51,160 nt of DNA from an uncultured bacterium. GTDB taxonomy: Bacteria > Armatimonadota > JACIXR01. Shown piece by piece: positions 1,499-15,230 of the stretch. The stretch spans positions 1-51,160 of the forward strand of contig CALITO010000044.1 in assembly GCA_938041455.1 (NCBI GenBank), written 5' to 3'. The stretch's first letter is position 1, and each line of letters opens with the position of its first letter. The notes beneath the pieces were generated by a model. The model worked only from the letters and a program-made list of their open reading frames with translations, had not been told where the DNA came from and did not search any database. Position numbers and translations under genes: made by a program.

Positions 1499-3811
1499 TC
1501 ATCTAATTGCTATCTTCTTGATACAATTAGGGGGAAGCTCTACGCTAAAGTTTCTCTTCAGATTGATGAATTTGCTAATGGGTTGGTCATTTGTGTTCAG
1601 GAGTAGGAGATGGGTGGGGAAAAGAGTAGCATAAACGCCATCTTGCACCCCATCTGGAATGGGACATCCCTCCGCTCTTAACTTGTCAACCAGCAAGGCA
1701 AAGAGCTTCTCCTTTTCCGCCCAACTAAATGGGAGGAAAATCGTCTTCCCCTTGCCCAGCCTTTTCACTCCCTTTTCTTTATCAAATAGTTCATCGAAGG
1801 GGGCGGTATCTCCTTCAACGGTCGCCATCTGGGAAACGCCACAGGAGAAGAGAATCCCTCCGTTTTCCACCCATTTTTTAATAAGTTTTATATCCTCCCT
1901 CTCTATGAACTCCCCCGCTATTATGATGAAGAATTTGTATTTCTTTAGGGCGCCATCTCTCAACATCGTCTCGTCCAGGAAGTCAACATCAACAAGGTCC
2001 CTTATAAGGGCAACCCTTTCTGGGAAATCAGCCCAGCGGATGGCAAGGGAAGTTTTGGGATAGAACACCGCGACTTCTACTTGGGGGGAAGACATCTCCT
2101 CCAGATAGGGATAGTTTTCTCGGAAAACCTCCATCCTTTTCTCTGTGCTGATGATATTTGAGTTGTATTCGTGGAGTTGTTTCGCTCCGCTTGCTACGAC
2201 ATTATAGATTCTGGCAGTGATTCCCTTCTCGTTTACTCCCGCAGCAGGTTCAAAGCCATAGAAGGCGCCGTAGAACTTGCCTGAAGAAGCTACCCAACGG
2301 GTGAGATAGAAATTGAAGGGGTAATCCGAACCCTCATTGGTAATCCTTACCCCACATCTATGTTTGCCAGCCACCTTACATTGCTCGGCAAAGTCGCTCC
2401 CATGGGGAGGGACTGCGTCACCTCCCGTGCAAAGGTAGACTTCGGTATCGGGGAAGTATTTCTTCGCGATGAGGAGCCACTGCTCAGCCCACCTCGTCAT
2501 CTCCCCTCTATACCAATTAACGAAATCCAGCCATCGCCGTCTGCTTTGAGCATCCCAAGGAGTGAAGGTGCCCGGGGGAGTAGGAGCATCTTCCCTTATA
2601 CCACTTTCTACCTTTAAAGGGGGGAATTCTACATCCTCGTAGGAGGGAAAATCGGTCCCCCAAGCGGAGTTGAGCTTTTCAATCGTTCCATACTTCTTCC
2701 TCATAGCCTCCCTAAAGGACCTCTTAGCATAAGGGTCTCCACACCAGTAGCCGGGATGGGTATGATAGACGCCGGGAATCTGGAATGTCCAACCCCCACC
2801 CCAGACAGGGAATATGGCTTCTCCATAATCACCGCTTATGCCCAAGAGGACGGATTCTATCACCCCCGTCTTACCATAGCGCTCGGCAAATTTAGAAAGG
2901 AAACGCTCAATCCATTTGGGGAGATGGGGATTCCAGATAGATTCTATCTTGCTGGCTATGTTGTGTTCCAAACAAACTGCCCCTATATGCTGGTCGGTTT
3001 CCCTGAACCACTTGGGGGTAGCGTAGGCTGGGCCAAGGATGAGAAATGGCACCCATTTCAACCCGTATTTCTTCAAAATCTCGACCTGCTTATCCCAACG
3101 CTCCCAGTTCCATTTATCTTTCTCGGGTTCAACGCTCTCCCAGGTTACATAGGATTCCACACTTGTGACTCCTAAAGCCTTGAAAAGCGCCGCCTGGCTC
3201 TCCGTCGCATCATTGCCGAAAGTTACCTCTCTGCTCTTCACAGGCGCGGCTGACTTGAACTTGCTTTCCTCCATAATCTTTTGAATCCTCCTTTCTGGGT
3301 CATAATCCTTGGGCTTTTCCCTGGAGACCTCTATCTTGTGAACATATATCCTCTTAGAGGGAGCGAAAATGCGGAAATCCGCTCCCCAATTCTGGCGATT
3401 GGCAAAATGGGCATCTTCGATGTGAAAGGTTATCCTCTGCCATTTATAGGTGCCAAGGCGAAGTTCCATAGGGAGGTCTTTATAGGGGTTGCCCGAAGCG
3501 TCATATTGGAGGGTGAAAGGGCCAAAGTCGTCATAATATTCAATTGTTATGTAAACTTCGTTTGTTCCGCCCTTCAAAAAGGAGTCGTCCAGTTGGAAAT
3601 AAATATAGAGGGAGTGGCTATCCACATCGTTATATCTACAGGATTTGCCATCAATGATGGCGGGCAGGTTGATGCCATCGCCTCCCGAGGGGCAGGCGAG
3701 CCCATTTTCCACATTGCGTTCACCGAGGATAATAGAAGGATTTTTGGCCTCCTCCCCTCTCAAGATGCTTAGAACAAGGAAAAGGACAAAAGGCAGAGCC
3801 TTTCTATACAT
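1499..3811 (-). CDS. Secreted GH42-like (clan GH-A) beta-galactosidase-type hydrolase
   Basis: 770 residues with an N-terminal signal peptide (about 1-22). Residues about 25-165 form a beta-sandwich (CBM-like) region. A TIM-barrel section follows (about 195-560) with VTWESVEPEKDKWNWERWD and later GISGDYGEA (Glu about 331, candidate acid/base) and RITNEGSDYP (candidate nucleophile Glu). The C-terminal part (IIIAGEFIEREDIKLIKKW, ENGGILFSCG) resembles the class I glutamine-amidotransferase-like trimerisation domain that follows the barrel in GH42 enzymes. The order barrel then amidotransferase-like domain is GH42-like, but the extra N-terminal module and divergent active-site context leave the exact family open. 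It lies 21 bases behind the pilin-like gene and is probably co-transcribed with it. The substrate is inferred to be a beta-galactoside or related glycan outside the cytoplasm. Confidence 0.7.
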   Translation of the reverse strand: MYRKALPFVLFLVLSILRGEEAKNPSIILGERNVENGLACPSGGDGINLPAIIDGKSCRYNDVDSHSLYIYFQLDDSFLKGGTNEVYITIEYYDDFGPFTLQYDASGNPYKDLPMELRLGTYKWQRITFHIEDAHFANRQNWGADFRIFAPSKRIYVHKIEVSREKPKDYDPERRIQKIMEESKFKSAAPVKSREVTFGNDATESQAALFKALGVTSVESYVTWESVEPEKDKWNWERWDKQVEILKKYGLKWVPFLILGPAYATPKWFRETDQHIGAVCLEHNIASKIESIWNPHLPKWIERFLSKFAERYGKTGVIESVLLGISGDYGEAIFPVWGGGWTFQIPGVYHTHPGYWCGDPYAKRSFREAMRKKYGTIEKLNSAWGTDFPSYEDVEFPPLKVESGIREDAPTPPGTFTPWDAQSRRRWLDFVNWYRGEMTRWAEQWLLIAKKYFPDTEVYLCTGGDAVPPHGSDFAEQCKVAGKHRCGVRITNEGSDYPFNFYLTRWVASSGKFYGAFYGFEPAAGVNEKGITARIYNVVASGAKQLHEYNSNIISTEKRMEVFRENYPYLEEMSSPQVEVAVFYPKTSLAIRWADFPERVALIRDLVDVDFLDETMLRDGALKKYKFFIIIAGEFIEREDIKLIKKWVENGGILFSCGVSQMATVEGDTAPFDELFDKEKGVKRLGKGKTIFLPFSWAEKEKLFALLVDKLRAEGCPIPDGVQDGVYATLFPTHLLLLNTNDQPISKFINLKRNFSVELPPNCIKKIAIR

Positions 3812-6672: not shown

Positions 6673-9600
6673 TTATTTGGGGACGAGCCTGAGGGTTATC
6701 TTTTCGCCGAAGAAAGCCCTCTCCTCAGCAAGCATCAGGAAGGTTATCTTTAATTCCTTTACAAGGCGCTTGAATAAAAGGAAAGGTGGGATTTCCGCAT
6801 CTTTCAAGAAGGGCGTGTTTTGGGGTATTCCCACCTTTACATCCCAACCTCCCCCATAGCAGAAAAGATAAACCGCTCCCTTTTCCTTCGTTTTCTCGGG
6901 CGATATCCATTCCGCCTCACCTATGTTCCCCACCGATGCCCTGCACCAAATCTCCCCGCTCCCATCCACCTCCAGGACATCCCCATCCTGAACCCTCCTC
7001 CATTCACCGCCCTTATCCTTTATCTCAATATAATTGAACTCCGCGTTGAGATACTTTAAGGGGTTTCTCCCATTATAGGGGACATTGCCCACAGCAATAA
7101 GGGGTGTAGTGAGGGAATTTGTGCCAGTCCCCTCGGTCTTCAAGTAGGGCGTCTTTCCTCCTTCCACAAGTTGAAGGTAAACAGGAGCGTAGTGGTCCCA
7201 GGCGTCCCGTGGGTAGGCGTCAAAATCTATGGTTATCACAGCATCTGGGTCTGGTTTTTTGCGGGGCTGGGAAGCGAATAGGGGATTGTATTTCTTTATC
7301 ACCTCGGCGACTGGGCGGAGTGTCCAATCGGGATTGATTATCCCAGCATCGCTCATCTCCCCCACTCTAAATCCCCCTGGATACCACCAGGGGGCACACC
7401 CTCTTGCCCCCGATTCTATGAACATCTTGTAGAACTTCTCTTCCTCTTCTTTTTGATATTCCAATCTCTCCTTCGGCGTCCAGACCATCCAGTCCTCCCA
7501 AGCTGTCCCATTTGGCCATATCGGTCCGCAGAACTCCATCCAGACCACCGGCTTTTCCCTGCTGATAAAACGATAATATAGAGTGATCAAACCACCCTTC
7601 CTTATATCCTCCCAAGGGGTGGGGTTCCCGTATCCTTTGGTGTGGAGGTTGTATCCCTCGGGGCAGAGGAAATCAACATGCTTGGCAACTCCCACGGAAT
7701 AGAGATGCGCGCCCCAATAGGCGTTTGGTAACCCGCACGCTCCTCCCCGAAAACTTATGAGATGATGGGGATCAACCTCCCTTATCGCTTTCACCACCGC
7801 ATTGTATCTTTTGCTTGCGAAATCGCTAAAGAAGCGAAGGAAAGCAGCGTCCGCTCGGCTATTGTTCAGACCTAAGGGAGGGGCCACCCTTCCATTTTCC
7901 CTTCGCAACTTGATGCCGAAATCCGCCTCCGCGTTCTCAACGCTACCATATCTTTCTTTGAGCCATTTCTCCCAGGCGGAGTCAAAAGCCCCGGCCTGAA
8001 TCCTCAGCACCTCCGCGGGTTCCCATGCTATATCATAGGCGAAGATGGTGGTTATGTTGGGAAGCCCGCACTCCTTTATGAAGCGAAATACATCGGTTTG
8101 GGAATGCGACGCCAGTCCCACCTCTCCTATTCCTCCCCCTTTGCTTAAGGAGCGAATAACTTCCTCATCAAAATTGAAGGGATTAGCCGGGATGTAGAGC
8201 ATAACCTTCATCCCGTGCTTATCAGCTCTATGAAGGAAATCCAGAAGATTCCTCACAACCCTTTTCTCACCCGATATAAGACTTACATCAGCCCCAACAG
8301 CGGAGAGCATATTTATTCCCAGCCCTTCCAAAATGGAGAGGTCCCTCTCTATAAGAAGGGGGTCGTAAAGGCTGGGAGCCAGCCAATTGCCAGCGTATAT
8401 ATCCGCATCTAAGCCTCCCAGAATAGATGGCCAGTAGTTAATTCCCCTTGGAAACCACTTCTTCCCCTTCAGATAGAAATCCGAGCCCTTTACTTGAACG
8501 AACTCCTCCCGTTTGGGCGGTTTTGGAGGAGCAAGGACAAGGAGTGGATGGCTTATTCTGTCCAATAATTTACCACCCTGCCAAAGTTCTATCACCACGC
8601 TGTAGCCATCGGAGGGAGCCGATGCCTTCCACTGCCACTCAACTACTCCCTTCCCTTCCTCACCTAAGGATAGGGGCTTATCCCCTTGGAAAACGATTTC
8701 CTTTCCCTTGAAGATTTTACACTTTGTGAGAAAAGTTTTTTCCTTTCCTCCTAACTTGAAGATATGAGCGCCCAGTTTGACTGTTTCTCCCAGATTATAG
8801 AGGAAGTGTTCTGCCCCTCCCTCAAAAATGAAAGCTCCCTGAAGCCTATCTATAGTTTGAAGAAGTATCTCGGTGAGGGCTTCCTTTTGAATATCGGCGG
8901 GGTTTTGGAGATGGAAGGAGAGGAGTGCACCGCCATCCCCTTTAATCAGGATAGAAGCTAATGTTCCCCTACTATCTCCTTTCTCATAAGCCTCTATGAG
9001 GGGAATCCAACGCCAGAGCCTATCCCTATTATAGCCCCTTCCCTGAGGACGCCAGACGGGGGAGAAACCTTCTATTCTCTCCCTCGTTTGCCAGTTTCTG
9101 AGGAAAACCGCTTGGGAAGAGGTGCGGAACTCCTCTATATTTGTCAGGGGATAGATTTTGTAGGAAGGGCTGATCGTCTCAAGGTTTATTGGGCGAAGGG
9201 TGGAGGGGCTGGGAATGGCTTGAATCTCCTCAGGGACAGCCATAGTTCCAACCTCGTCAACCCAAAAGGTGTGCTTACCTCCTCCTATTTTGGCTGTATG
9301 GGAATCGGATATACCGAAGATGATTTGCTGGGCATTTTGGGGATTGAAGCAATCGCCGGGGAAGCCCCTTCCAAGGCTGGGATTGTCCCTCCAGTAGAGG
9401 AAGGCTCTGGGAGGTAAGGCGTAGAACCTCCACTCGGGGGTCAGTTCCACGACCGCTATCCACCGGGAAAGGTCCTTCTCCCGCCATTCAACGGACATAA
9501 GAGTTGTGGTTTCGTCTCCCTTAGCCCAAAAGCAAGTGAGGGTATGTCCTTGGGGGAAGGGAGATTTAGGGGAAATGGGGGAGCTAGCTGCTCCCCAGCC

Positions 9601-10788
9601 GGGAAGAGAGGCGGAAACCTGGAGGCATTCCCCCTCCCTTCCTTCAACAAGTTCCAACTCCACTGGATTTTTGGGGGAATTGCTTTCCCTTCCCCATTTT
9701 CCCAGTTCTTCCCCCTCAAAACTAATGAATATATTCTTTGGCTGAGCGATGAGATATTGGTTTATTTTCTCCTCTATCTGTTTCTTATCAAGCCAGCCAC
9801 CTTGCCATTTCCAGAGCATTTTGGTGAAGGCAGGAGCACCAATTAGAAGAAGATTCCCCCCTCTTCTTAAAAAGGAGCGAAGGGAGGTGGTCGCCTCCAC
9901 GGGGAAGTAACGGGCATCGGGAAGGAGAAGTAGGGAGAAATTGTGAGGGCTGAGAAGTTCCTGGTCCAATAAATCCTCGCTATCGAGGATGGTAACGCCC
10001 CAGCCGGAGTTTTCCAATCTGGGGAGAAGATGATTGGCTACTTTCTTCCCTTCTCCTGGGAAACCCTCCTCACTGAAAATGGCTATGTTCCCTTTCTGAC
10101 CTCTCTTTATCTCAACGGGCTTCGGTTTATATTCCCTCGTCCAATAGAGAAGGGAAAAATCGCTGAATTCAACATTCATCCCCTGAGCCCAAACACCTGC
10201 CACTCCTTCCCTTACTGCCAGTGCCTTCTCAAAGGAGTATTTTATCCACCAGCGCTTCCCCTCCTGGAGGTCTTCCACTTCCCCCCTTATCCCCTCCTCG
10301 CTCAACTCCAAGCGCATTTTATAGGGGTGATTGTATTTCCAATCTATATGTCCTCCCGTCCAGAAGGGGAGACGAGTTTCTCCTTCCATCTGGGCTTGAT
10401 GTCTTCCTTCAAAAGTCTCTATGAGCTCGGGGTAGCGAAAGAAGAGATCGGGTGCCTCAACTAAGGAAAGGCGCCATAAACTCCCCTCATCCCACCAGAG
10501 GCAGATTCCTGCAGCTGCCCAGCCAAGTCTGTTTGCCCTTTCTTTTATCACTATCTTAACCTCTATAATTTGCTTACTCGCTATGGGAGCAGGGGCAAGG
10601 GAATAACTTGCTCTGCCGTAGATCTCCTCTATGGTATATTTGCCATCCCTTACTTTCCACTCTCCCCTCATAACCTGCCATTTAGCGAAATCGTTCTCCC
10701 ACTTCCCTTCACCACCTATCGCTGATAGGGGTGGAACTAAGAGGGAAAGCAAGAAGTAAGAGAGGATATTTAACCTCAAAGGGGTCAT
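6673..10788 (-). CDS. Very large secreted clan GH-A glycoside hydrolase (multidomain)
   Basis: 1371 residues with an N-terminal signal peptide (LNILSYFLLSLLVPPLSAIG). Residues about 25-225 form a concanavalin-like or CBM-like beta region. About 232-345 is an amidotransferase/ThuA-like alpha/beta domain (IAIFSEEGFPGEGKKVANHL, SFLRRGGNLLLIGAP). About 350-520 is a second beta-sandwich. From about 775 a TIM barrel begins (KGKKWFPRGINYW) with DIAWEP (Glu about 923, candidate acid/base) and VVWMEFCGP (Glu about 1085, candidate nucleophile), an arrangement like GH2 and GH5 barrels. A further beta domain closes the protein. It is last in the operon with the aldo/keto reductase (12 bases upstream) and the GH38-like gene. 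The family and substrate cannot be fixed by eye. Confidence 0.65.
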   Translation of the reverse strand: MTPLRLNILSYFLLSLLVPPLSAIGGEGKWENDFAKWQVMRGEWKVRDGKYTIEEIYGRASYSLAPAPIASKQIIEVKIVIKERANRLGWAAAGICLWWDEGSLWRLSLVEAPDLFFRYPELIETFEGRHQAQMEGETRLPFWTGGHIDWKYNHPYKMRLELSEEGIRGEVEDLQEGKRWWIKYSFEKALAVREGVAGVWAQGMNVEFSDFSLLYWTREYKPKPVEIKRGQKGNIAIFSEEGFPGEGKKVANHLLPRLENSGWGVTILDSEDLLDQELLSPHNFSLLLLPDARYFPVEATTSLRSFLRRGGNLLLIGAPAFTKMLWKWQGGWLDKKQIEEKINQYLIAQPKNIFISFEGEELGKWGRESNSPKNPVELELVEGREGECLQVSASLPGWGAASSPISPKSPFPQGHTLTCFWAKGDETTTLMSVEWREKDLSRWIAVVELTPEWRFYALPPRAFLYWRDNPSLGRGFPGDCFNPQNAQQIIFGISDSHTAKIGGGKHTFWVDEVGTMAVPEEIQAIPSPSTLRPINLETISPSYKIYPLTNIEEFRTSSQAVFLRNWQTRERIEGFSPVWRPQGRGYNRDRLWRWIPLIEAYEKGDSRGTLASILIKGDGGALLSFHLQNPADIQKEALTEILLQTIDRLQGAFIFEGGAEHFLYNLGETVKLGAHIFKLGGKEKTFLTKCKIFKGKEIVFQGDKPLSLGEEGKGVVEWQWKASAPSDGYSVVIELWQGGKLLDRISHPLLVLAPPKPPKREEFVQVKGSDFYLKGKKWFPRGINYWPSILGGLDADIYAGNWLAPSLYDPLLIERDLSILEGLGINMLSAVGADVSLISGEKRVVRNLLDFLHRADKHGMKVMLYIPANPFNFDEEVIRSLSKGGGIGEVGLASHSQTDVFRFIKECGLPNITTIFAYDIAWEPAEVLRIQAGAFDSAWEKWLKERYGSVENAEADFGIKLRRENGRVAPPLGLNNSRADAAFLRFFSDFASKRYNAVVKAIREVDPHHLISFRGGACGLPNAYWGAHLYSVGVAKHVDFLCPEGYNLHTKGYGNPTPWEDIRKGGLITLYYRFISREKPVVWMEFCGPIWPNGTAWEDWMVWTPKERLEYQKEEEEKFYKMFIESGARGCAPWWYPGGFRVGEMSDAGIINPDWTLRPVAEVIKKYNPLFASQPRKKPDPDAVITIDFDAYPRDAWDHYAPVYLQLVEGGKTPYLKTEGTGTNSLTTPLIAVGNVPYNGRNPLKYLNAEFNYIEIKDKGGEWRRVQDGDVLEVDGSGEIWCRASVGNIGEAEWISPEKTKEKGAVYLFCYGGGWDVKVGIPQNTPFLKDAEIPPFLLFKRLVKELKITFLMLAEERAFFGEKITLRLVPK

Positions 10789-11795: not shown

Positions 11796-14700
11796 TCATC
11801 TTTTTATCAAAAGCGTCATAATCTCGTTCTGCTTTATGGGGAAGCTCACTTTGCCCTTTTCCCCTATCTTCCTTAAGGGATTACCCCGCATATCAGCTAA
11901 CCATATCTCCTTGCCTTCCCCAAACTCGATACTTACCTCCTTTTCCCCTTTATAAGGGCGCCAGAGCCTGAGTATGAAGCCATCCCTTACGGGATAGAAG
12001 GCGCTCAACTCAACACCATCAGAGGGGTTTATTCCCAGGAGGGAAAAGGCTTCCTCTTTCAGGATACCACTTGCGGGCAAGGCTATTATGGGCTGAGATA
12101 TCTCCTCTCTATATCGGGCAACTCCAGCACTTTCCCTATCCCCCTCATAGAAATAGAGGGCAAGTTCATAATTCTCCTTCCCCGTGAGAGGAGCAAATTG
12201 AGCGGGGGCATAGATGAAGTTCCCCCCGTAGGCAAGGACGAGGCTCAAAGATGCATCCTCACCATCAAATATACCGCTGGTAGCCCTATCGGTATACACC
12301 GCAATTCCCCTTCCATCTCCTTCCGCTCCCGCGTAGCGGAGGATGGGGAAGAAGTTAGCATATGGCTCCCTTAGTTCGAAGGCGCCGTGGGAATAGAACC
12401 TCGGTCCCTTGAAGTTAAGGGGTAAAACGAGGCGTAGTTTTAAATCGTCCCTCGCCCAATCAGGAACACCTGGCATAGAGGGAGATTCTCCCCCCGCCCC
12501 TATGATGCTTCTCTCCCTGAAGTTGAAATCAATGCTAAGCCTTAGCAAAGGCGAAAGCGGAGATAAAGTGAGGCGTAGTTGAAATGGAACCTCTCCTATT
12601 TTGCCTTCCCCCTCCCCAATGGCAAAAGGACCTTCGTTATAAACTTTTATTTTCTCTATTTCCCCTATTTGCCCTCCCAAGGGAAAATGCCCGGCTATGT
12701 AAGCGGGCTTGCTAAGTAGTGCTTCACCTTTAGGGGAATACACCATAACTCCTTCTTGAGATACTACGGCCCTTATGAATCCATTTTCCAAAACCGCTCT
12801 GCTCTCCTCTAACCTTGCCTTCGCCTTCTTCTCTATAGGGGGTGAGCTACCATCCCTTATATTGACGCTTATATACCCCATAGAAGGTAATCGGGCGAGG
12901 ATTTGAGCCTTGAGTTCGTTGACGCTCCCATCAGGATGGCGGGAAAGGACATCTATATCAGCGGGAAGTTTTTTACCACCGCTTTGGAAACAAGGATTTT
13001 TAACAACTCCCCGGGGAAGAGAAATCTTGATGCTCAGGATTTCCTCCCGCTCTCTCCCCACAAGATTCAGGAGATTGAACCTCTGCCAGTTCTCACTTAT
13101 AAGGGGTTTAATCAAGGATTGGCAAATGTCCCTCGCTTCATAGGAGGTAGCATATGTCAAATCGGCGTAGGTCCCAAAACCTTTAGTCCATATTCCGAAT
13201 ATCACGGGGGCGCAAACCCAAGCATCGTGATGGTGCCCAATCAGAAGAAGCCTCCAGGCGTCATCTAACCTATCTGTGAGCTCTTTAGGAAATCCTTTCT
13301 TCTGCTCCGCATAGGCGAGGGCTAAGAGCCGTTCTGTTTGGAGGAGGGCGTCCTCCGCTACTCTATCCGCCCGCTGTGGCCGTCCTGCTAAAAGCCCGAA
13401 AGGGAAACGATGTTCAAATCCCTTATAGGCATCAATCCAATCCCTTTTGGGAGGTCCTATCTCTTCCAAATATTCCTTGAGCGTGAGGACCTCCATCTCA
13501 TAGGGAGGCGGCGGAAGCCTCATTCTCAGCCTCACGAATTTCTCCCCTTCCTTACCATCGCCCTTGACTATCTCCCCACTTGCCTCAACCCCTTCGCTTC
13601 TCCCTATCCCCCATTGTGGGGGGAGGGAATCTACCTCAAAAGAACCTGAAGAGAGAAGTTCTCTCCCTTCCTCGTCCTTCAAGTGGAGGGCGTCTATGTC
13701 GGCGTCTCCCTCATCGGAGGAGATCACCCTCGCCTGGGGGAATATATATACTGCATCATCGGGAACGATGAAGCTGACTCTGAGAAAATGCCATTGGTCA
13801 TCAAGTGGGCAATCCGTCGTCTGAATTCCTCCCTTGGCAATCCCTCGGGCATTATGGGCATCGATATAGAGGTGAAAATTTCCTCTGCGTGCTCTTGCCC
13901 AGGCGGAGAGTTCCAGTTTCTTCCCCCGCAAGTTCTCAGCGGGTAGTCTTTGGCAGAGGTTTGCCCACCCGCTCTCAAATCTGCTCCTGAGGAAAGCGGG
14001 GGCAGAGGAGTCAACCCAGGAGGCTATGAAATCACCAAAGGCAACGAAGAGAGGGTTATCTATTCCCCTAAGGTGACATTCCTCCACGAGGTTCCTGTTG
14101 GGGGTAGGGGGGGCACCCCAATCGCTTCTCAAAGGTGGGGGCTGTGGGATGGCGACGATGCTTGTCCCATCGGGACCAATCCAATTGACGACTTCAGCAT
14201 CAAAAGGGGGGACGAAGCCGAAGGCACCCCAAGAAGTTCTATAAAGGATAGCATCAAAACCGAACTTGCGAAGGATTTGCGGCAACTGCCCCACCATATC
14301 GGGTTCCTGAGCAGCGTAGATTTTTACGGGAATGCCCAGAACTTCCTCCACCGCCCTACAACCGAGGAGAAATTGACGAACTACCGCCTCATCCCCAATT
14401 GTATACATAATTGGCTGGGTATAGGCGCCACCCACTATCTCTATCTGCCCCTTTCTAATAAACTCCTTGAGTTTTTCCAGCCTCATCGTATCTTTTAAAG
14501 AGGGAAGAAATACATCCTCCAAATCACCATTTGAAAGAAGCTCCTCTCCCGTTTGTTTTATTTTTAGGGAAAGGTCGTCAAAATCGGCATATCCCGGTTG
14601 GGAATCTATCTTTGCTTGGGGGAAAATGGTGACTGCTCCCAAGGGAACGGGAAATTCTAACTCAACATAATGCCATTTACCATCCGGGGGAACTCTTGAA

Positions 14701-15230
14701 GAGAGACGAGCAGAACCGGGAACGAAGGCGGAGGAATCCCAGGCGTCTATATATAGGTGGGCTCCCTCTCCCTTATGTGCCCTTATCCATCCGCTAAAAA
14801 GGAGGTTTTTCCCTTGCAAGTTCATTGCCTCCTTTGGCTGGATAAGTTGGACATACTCGCCTCCTTCAAATGTCAGCCTGACGCCCAGAGAACCTGAGTG
14901 AGCGTATTCCTTACCGAAGGCGAACTTCCACTCACCCACACCACCCCAGTTCCAATTACGAATCCGCTCCTCTATACCCTTTTTCTCGATGGAGAATCTA
15001 TCACCAATGAGCATTCTCTCCACAGTGTAAGGCTCTAACTCCAGCACTGCCTTAAGGTTAGGATTGAGAGAAAGGTATTTGAAGAGGGAATCAAGAGCTA
15101 ATCGTGTGTCTTCCTCATTAGTGAGGTAATATCCTCCATGCCATCCCCAGGAGACATAGACCTTAGAGGGAGACGAGGATAAGAGGAGGAGCAAACAACC
15201 CGCAAATATTAGGCTCTTTAATAATTGCAA
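11796..15230 (-). CDS. Secreted GH38-like alpha-mannosidase with two inserted beta domains
   Basis: 1144 residues with a signal peptide (about 1-21) and a TTG start. The GH38 N-terminal catalytic fold is split. Residues 24-80 begin it, about 92-240 are a jelly-roll insert, about 245-410 resume it (AAQEPDMVGQLPQILRKFGF, candidate nucleophile Asp 311), about 412-570 are a second, similar insert, and the helical middle domain follows with IGHHHDAW (about 666-671, zinc/substrate site). The C-terminal half (FNLLNLVGREREEILSIKIS onward) is the GH38 C-terminal beta region. The usual HxD near the N-terminus is replaced by GWHGGYYLT, so one canonical zinc ligand appears absent. The inserts share GKWHYVELEFPVP / DQWHFLRVSFIVP and IFPQAKIDS / IFPQARVIS. 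First gene of the operon with the aldo/keto reductase and the large GH-A enzyme. Confidence 0.7.
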   Translation of the reverse strand: MQLLKSLIFAGCLLLLLSSSPSKVYVSWGWHGGYYLTNEEDTRLALDSLFKYLSLNPNLKAVLELEPYTVERMLIGDRFSIEKKGIEERIRNWNWGGVGEWKFAFGKEYAHSGSLGVRLTFEGGEYVQLIQPKEAMNLQGKNLLFSGWIRAHKGEGAHLYIDAWDSSAFVPGSARLSSRVPPDGKWHYVELEFPVPLGAVTIFPQAKIDSQPGYADFDDLSLKIKQTGEELLSNGDLEDVFLPSLKDTMRLEKLKEFIRKGQIEIVGGAYTQPIMYTIGDEAVVRQFLLGCRAVEEVLGIPVKIYAAQEPDMVGQLPQILRKFGFDAILYRTSWGAFGFVPPFDAEVVNWIGPDGTSIVAIPQPPPLRSDWGAPPTPNRNLVEECHLRGIDNPLFVAFGDFIASWVDSSAPAFLRSRFESGWANLCQRLPAENLRGKKLELSAWARARRGNFHLYIDAHNARGIAKGGIQTTDCPLDDQWHFLRVSFIVPDDAVYIFPQARVISSDEGDADIDALHLKDEEGRELLSSGSFEVDSLPPQWGIGRSEGVEASGEIVKGDGKEGEKFVRLRMRLPPPPYEMEVLTLKEYLEEIGPPKRDWIDAYKGFEHRFPFGLLAGRPQRADRVAEDALLQTERLLALAYAEQKKGFPKELTDRLDDAWRLLLIGHHHDAWVCAPVIFGIWTKGFGTYADLTYATSYEARDICQSLIKPLISENWQRFNLLNLVGREREEILSIKISLPRGVVKNPCFQSGGKKLPADIDVLSRHPDGSVNELKAQILARLPSMGYISVNIRDGSSPPIEKKAKARLEESRAVLENGFIRAVVSQEGVMVYSPKGEALLSKPAYIAGHFPLGGQIGEIEKIKVYNEGPFAIGEGEGKIGEVPFQLRLTLSPLSPLLRLSIDFNFRERSIIGAGGESPSMPGVPDWARDDLKLRLVLPLNFKGPRFYSHGAFELREPYANFFPILRYAGAEGDGRGIAVYTDRATSGIFDGEDASLSLVLAYGGNFIYAPAQFAPLTGKENYELALYFYEGDRESAGVARYREEISQPIIALPASGILKEEAFSLLGINPSDGVELSAFYPVRDGFILRLWRPYKGEKEVSIEFGEGKEIWLADMRGNPLRKIGEKGKVSFPIKQNEIMTLLIKR

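Follow-up and report, generated by a model that had tools for sequence, protein, structure and literature searches.

What becomes of a glycosidase of a zinc-dependent family when one of its zinc ligands is lost and its catalytic barrel is twice interrupted by other domains? The question is raised by a gene at positions 11796-15230 of a 51,160-nucleotide stretch of DNA from an uncultured member of the Armatimonadota (contig CALITO010000044.1, the whole stretch being referred to here as the window). The gene encodes a protein of 1144 residues that has the fold of glycoside hydrolase family 38 (GH38), yet departs from that family in its metal site, in its conserved acid and in the two modules inserted into its barrel. 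In our judgement the chances are about even that it is a secreted, active, retaining glycosidase built on a GH38 scaffold, which uses a Glu/Asp pair resembling that of GH57 and grips its glycan by means of the inserts. On this reading the zinc-centred Asp chemistry of GH38 would have been replaced by the GH57-like pair: the nucleophile would be Glu309, at the end of strand 304-307, and the acid/base would be Asp400, with which strand 394-400 ends. His31 and Asp669 would hold the sugar, and two inserts resembling carbohydrate-binding modules (CBMs) of the CBM4/9 type would keep the enzyme on the glycan.

Scaffold and active site

A preliminary description of this DNA had identified a GH38-like reading frame here and proposed structure prediction followed by a fold search; the open reading frame (ORF), the Pfam scan and the modelled fold all bear it out, the last over the whole chain. 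GH38N (PF01074) matches residues 252-360 only (44.9 bits, E 1.2e-11), and the alpha-mannosidase Ams1 is the best sequence match in the PDB. From an alignment of 29 rows (A2, comprising the window protein, eight rows of its insert-bearing family and 20 pieces from ten insert-less relatives) AlphaFold2 produced a model with a mean predicted local distance difference test score (pLDDT) of 90.2 and a predicted template modelling score (pTM) of 0.85. When the model was compared with the PDB (VIA-align), GH38 enzymes ranked first (5kbp_B, Z 28.5, root-mean-square deviation 3.5, 733 of 884 residues aligned) and GH57 barrels second (Z 18 to 21), and the first 40 rows of a Foldseek search were all GH38 enzymes. 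The modelled protein is therefore a complete GH38 fold, with barrel, helix bundle and C-terminal beta domains. It shares this whole architecture with the GH38 alpha-mannosidases (5kbp, 2wyh, Ams1), and His31, His668 and Asp669 besides, and differs from them in the loss of the second HxD residue, in the conservation of Glu309 instead of an Asp nucleophile and in the two modules inside its barrel. The protein is probably secreted, and the predicted signal peptide at its start (Table 1) would be cleaved.

Residue conservation was counted in the columns of A2, with gapped rows excluded from each total. On strand 1, where GH38 enzymes carry the HxD zinc ligands, the second ligand position (33) is Gly in all seven family rows with letters there, the window protein included. 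The motif reads H31-G-G throughout, in agreement with the earlier suspicion that this site is altered. By eye, HxD is kept in the six other GH38N proteins of the same genome (seven GH38N genes in all), and two residues past the first His GH38 has Asp, the genome's GH57 protein Pro and the present protein Gly. After strand 4, sequence alignment puts Gln308 (Gln in 6/6 family rows) where GH38 has an Asp that is both nucleophile and zinc ligand, and the conserved acid is Glu309, found in all six family rows and all ten related ones. The HD motif of the helix bundle, which supplies a His zinc ligand and an Asp, is intact in all 17 rows as His668 and Asp669; Cys673 is conserved in 16 of the 17, and Glu606-His607-Arg608 does not vary among the ungapped family rows. 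Asp400 can be followed within the family, the insert-less relatives being mostly gapped or misaligned in that column and so unusable for comparison.

Table 1. Features of the gene at 11796-15230 and of its product, in order along the protein
Feature	Residues	Window positions	Strand	Basis
GH38-superfamily enzyme	1-1144	11796..15230	minus	ORF, 1144 aa, TTG start; PF01074 E 1.2e-11; fold Z 28.5 to GH38 5kbp_B
Probable signal peptide	1-22	15165..15230	minus	Modelled hydrophobic helix 2-17 just before strand 23-32; hydrophobic leaders also open relatives
First His of GH38 HxD motif, here HGG	His31	15138..15140	minus	His in 17/17 rows; end of modelled strand 23-32
Insert 1, CBM4/9-like, between barrel strands 61-65 and 263-265	88-245	14496..14969	minus	Model; homology to insert 2; PF02018 below cut-off in orthologs L016, L017
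Segment like N-terminal strand of normal CBM_4_9, at C-terminal end of insert 1 (GEELLSNGDLED)	228-239	14514..14549	minus	L016 rotation test
Proposed nucleophile, right after barrel strand 304-307	Glu309	14304..14306	minus	Glu in 16/16 rows; GH57-motif alignment at 21% probability
Earlier candidate, not conserved	Asp311	14298..14300	minus	D, G or N in family; A, E, F, H or D in relatives
Proposed acid/base, end of strand 394-400	Asp400	14031..14033	minus	Asp in 6/6 family rows; modelled strand end; putative role
Insert 2, second CBM4/9-like module	415-575	13506..13988	minus	Folds alone, pLDDT 85.2; core aligned to CBM16/CBM22 chains, Z 6.5-7.4
Segment like first strands of normal CBM_4_9, at C-terminal end of insert 2	522-572	13515..13667	minus	Left over by CBM16/CBM22 chains; L002 rotation match
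His-His-His-Asp; His668 and Asp669 form the GH38 HD motif	666-669	13224..13235	minus	His668, Asp669 in 17/17 rows

The case for a GH57-like pair starts from the chemistry of that family, in which a Glu on strand 4 is the nucleophile and an Asp on strand 7 the acid, the Glu standing fourth in a motif of six residues, for the most part with Trp at its start (PMC6037648). When a profile of the ten insert-less relatives was aligned by hhalign with the genome's own GH57 protein (L058), the conserved Glu fell on the Glu of WLPECAY, at a probability of only 21%. GH57 itself (PF03065) matches residues 250-329 of the window protein at E 9.6e-6, with 25.6 bits against a cut-off of 21.2 and below the 44.9 bits of PF01074, and covers 81 of 291 profile positions (90-170). 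The protein resembles GH57 enzymes (4-alpha-glucanotransferase, branching enzymes, amylopullulanases) in its barrel fold and perhaps in the placement of its conserved Glu, and differs from them in its GH38-type C-terminal part, in the presence of His668 and in this partial match. The catalytic roles and a loss of metal dependence are inferred. Four points tell against such a pair. The probability of the profile alignment is low; the PF03065 match does not discriminate, because PF03065 also picks up two canonical GH38 genes in this genome; in gapless HMMER alignments to GH38 chains the canonical Asp falls on Gln308, one residue before the conserved Glu; and a metal may still bind, because two of the four GH38 zinc ligands, His31 and His668, are kept.

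The last of these leads to the first alternative, a metal-dependent enzyme of GH38 type with a reduced site, in which the metal would sit on His31, His668 and Glu309, and Glu309 would replace the canonical Asp nucleophile. In the published account of Ams1, zinc is bound by H290, D292, D402 and H615; D402 is also the putative nucleophile, and the acid/base is D493 (PMC7609781). Two of these four ligands are retained here, the three proposed ligands are invariant in the rows with letters there, and the whole fold is that of GH38. We nonetheless regard this as less likely than not, given Gly33 at the second-ligand position in 7/7 family rows and a conserved acid that is displaced by one residue from the canonical Asp in the gapless alignment. 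A degenerate protein that binds glycans but has no catalytic activity would fit the two CBM-like inserts, the incomplete zinc site and a copy in one genome of the phylum (G207) that is split into two frames; it is improbable in view of His31, Glu309, Asp400, Glu606-His607-Arg608, His668 and Asp669, all invariant among the ungapped rows of a family that has diverged to 39% identity. Least probable by far is that Asp311 is the true nucleophile and a metal ligand, with Glu309 structural. Asp311 does sit in the EPDM stretch that precedes QLPQ, roughly at the place of the GH38 Asp, but the residue is Gly in L016, Asn in the copy from G207 and Cys in a Bacteroides relative, and seven of ten related rows have Ala, Glu, Phe or His.

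Asp311 had been named in the preliminary description as a possible metal-site residue, but the conserved acid is Glu309: the Asp311 column holds Asp in four of six family rows and three of ten related rows (7/16 in all), Glu309 is Glu in 16/16, and Asp311 was rejected as nucleophile for its lack of conservation in A2. The ortholog L016 (L016:1489-4836) has Gly at 311 and GluHisHisAsp replacing HisHisHisAsp, and retains Glu309. The same description had left the choice between a distinct GH38 subfamily and a different mechanism. A distinct subfamily within the GH38 superfamily is supported by the fold, by a clade with inserts of its own and by the altered HxD motif; a different catalytic mechanism is plausible, as suggested by the conserved Glu309 and the low-probability alignment with GH57.

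The two inserted modules

Both inserts are strand-rich stretches inside the barrel of the AlphaFold2 model, and they are homologous to each other. Their profiles align (hhalign) at E 3.2e-43 over 119 columns with 42% identity, whereas ten controls set against other regions of the protein all remained below 1% probability, and IFPQAK/R and WH(Y/F) occur in both. The two homologous modules first described as interrupting the catalytic fold are thus upheld, with borders amended to about 88-245 and 415-575. Modelled alone, insert 2 forms one beta-sandwich that includes its last three strands (pLDDT 85.2, the first 16 residues low).

The modules look like distant relatives of CBM4/9. In the native proteins PF02018 (CBM_4_9) matches insert 1 of L016 with 20.2 bits (profile 16-121 of 136) and that of L017 with 14.6 bits, both under the cut-off of 25.9; no match was found in the native Pfam scan of the window protein, L001 or L002, nor for native insert 1 of L004 or L020. 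The top fold match of insert 2, spanning nearly the whole model, is a CBM of PbXyn10C (4mgq, Z 9.7), and CBM16/CBM22 chains align from CBM residue 43-52 onward to model residues 18-122 (Z 6.5 to 7.4). What is shared with the beta-sandwiches of CBM_4_9 and CBM16/CBM22 is a sub-cut-off profile match and, more tentatively, the fold of the core, and what differs is an apparently rotated strand order and far-diverged sequences. Modules related to the inserts have matches in 65 of 291 genomes of the phylum, the insert-bearing family included. The inserts probably hold the enzyme on a glycan.

A catalytic barrel interrupted by CBMs is not new in itself, as GH10 xylanases of the Xyn10C type are already known to carry a CBM4 pair inside theirs (PMC7848910). 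The likeness extends to the fold match just given; in those xylanases, however, the two modules are inserted in tandem, at a single position between strand 3 and helix 3, and here they occupy two separate sites in a GH38 barrel. No inserted-module architecture in GH38 was found described in the open-licence literature searched by title and abstract opening, which is no proof of its absence.

That both inserts are circularly permuted, each at a different point, is moderately supported. The first positions of the PF02018 profile are missing from the match to insert 1, which suggests that NGDFE, the strand that normally comes first, stands at the insert's end. When the end piece of L016 insert 1 was moved to the front, its score rose from 18.7 to 27.3 bits (profile 1-122), against 19.6 for a control with the piece shuffled, and this rotated insert alone passed the curated cut-off. 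Insert 2 of L002 gave a weak match when rotated (13.8 bits) and none in native or shuffled order, so that rotation improved the match in two of the five inserts tested. The CBM N-terminus and the C-terminus of the insert 2 model are left unaligned in the CBM16/CBM22 matches, as rotation predicts, though Z there is only 6.5 to 7.4. In the profile of insert 2 the homologous part also begins 22 positions earlier than it does in that of insert 1, an offset that fits different cut points, and three chains titled as circularly permuted jelly rolls (1cpn, 1cpm, 1mve) span nearly the whole insert 2 model (Z 9.0 to 9.6).

Other results tell against this kinship and permutation. The window protein, L001 and L002 lack a native PF02018 match, as noted above. 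After rotation none appeared for L002 insert 1, L016 insert 2 or insert 2 of the window protein, which has none in native, rotated or shuffled order. The CBM16/CBM22 Z values lie below Z 8, a range flagged as one of common arrangements. The permuted jelly rolls do not discriminate, because eqolisin peptidases and neprosin (1s2b, 2ifr, 2ifw, 7zu8), whose titles mention no permutation, span insert 2 likewise. Profile alignment of the insert 2 tail with the insert 1 head gave E 0.011 at 3.7% probability (three controls, 0.2 to 0.58), and a longer head aligned over just seven columns. Finally, among 11 loci (L070-L080), seven other proteins were aligned with the insert 1 profile for the phrase that follows the module, and six of the seven have an NGxxE-like phrase there, so that the phrase may belong to the next module; alternatively, tandem arrays of modules may have been the source from which the inserts were cut.

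Relatives and distribution

A scan of genome contigs found four loci, one of them in a metagenome-assembled genome labelled Poribacteria. Within the phylum, eight of 291 genomes match at 1e-20; the insert-bearing family is present in seven of them, because the match in the eighth, G033, is an insert-less protein. Of the seven copies, one is truncated by a contig end (G065) and another falls into two frames (G207). To judge by the open frames, L001, L002 and L004 seem identical to the genes matched in G206, G212 and G065. The split copy, a same-genus ortholog (L014 / L020, G207 C2:275624-279026), breaks near the conserved QEPDM motif, through decay or assembly error.

In both trees the insert-bearing rows form one clade, with Shimodaira-Hasegawa-like approximate likelihood ratio test (SH-aLRT) support of 100 in the first and 100/100 in the second, and the canonical GH38 rows fall on one side of a branch supported at 99 and 100/100 respectively. 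A plasmid search returned two records, each covering less than 80% of the query, one of which, translated, is the insert-less Bacteroides finegoldii protein WP_022275404. This uncharacterised protein, which has HGG and HHD, a Glu at position 309 and a Cys at 311, is the nearest insert-less relative sampled; it groups with the insert clade at 99/96, and its branch is long. It has uncharacterised counterparts in the Armatimonadota (L019, L022, L023, L024) that likewise share HGG, the invariant Glu and HHD with the insert-bearing family and differ from it in that none carries inserts. The insert clade joins the DHGG and DHA groups at 95 in the first tree and at 71/39 in the second, to which the Bacteroides protein was added and from which 11 rows were omitted. 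How the other Glu groups are ordered is unsure (71/39), and whether all Glu rows make up a single clade depends on where the trees are rooted.

A wider proposal, tentative and rather less likely than not, is that these proteins are a clade intermediate between GH38 and GH57. Its members would be retaining glycosidases that work without a metal, having a complete GH38 scaffold equipped with a Glu/Asp pair of GH57 type, and one of its branches would have acquired two CBM4-like domains, cut at two different points of their common fold, as two different circular permutants in one barrel. If so, living intermediates would link a zinc-dependent glycosidase family to a zinc-free one, some proteins now annotated as GH38 would be marked as possibly differing in mechanism, and one catalytic barrel would have accepted two rotated versions of a single binding domain.

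Other GH38-like proteins show further variation. In a set of 18 insert-less GH38-like rows of the phylum (from loci L027-L050) EEEF stands before QLPQ throughout, and strand 1 among these EEEF-type proteins reads NHxHWVD in L027, L028, L037, L042 and L044 and NHWS in L041. Proteins annotated as GH38 may often carry a Glu in the region where an Asp is usual. L009 and L010, from the same genome as the window (C3 and C4), are GH38N proteins with HxD, unusual nucleophile regions and long tree branches.

Genomic neighbourhood

Elsewhere in the window lie genes for GH20-like, GH42/14-like and GH123-like proteins, a SASA-esterase and a transporter of the major facilitator superfamily (MFS), and an aldo/keto reductase gene adjoins; this set of genes fits glycan use. 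A 770-residue protein encoded at 1499-3811 is hit by two profiles, GH14 (53 bits) and GH42 (50 bits). Downstream of the GH38-like gene, at 6673-10788, a protein of 1371 residues has a sub-threshold GH42 match only, and a relative of it directly follows the ortholog in L001 (5183-9328).

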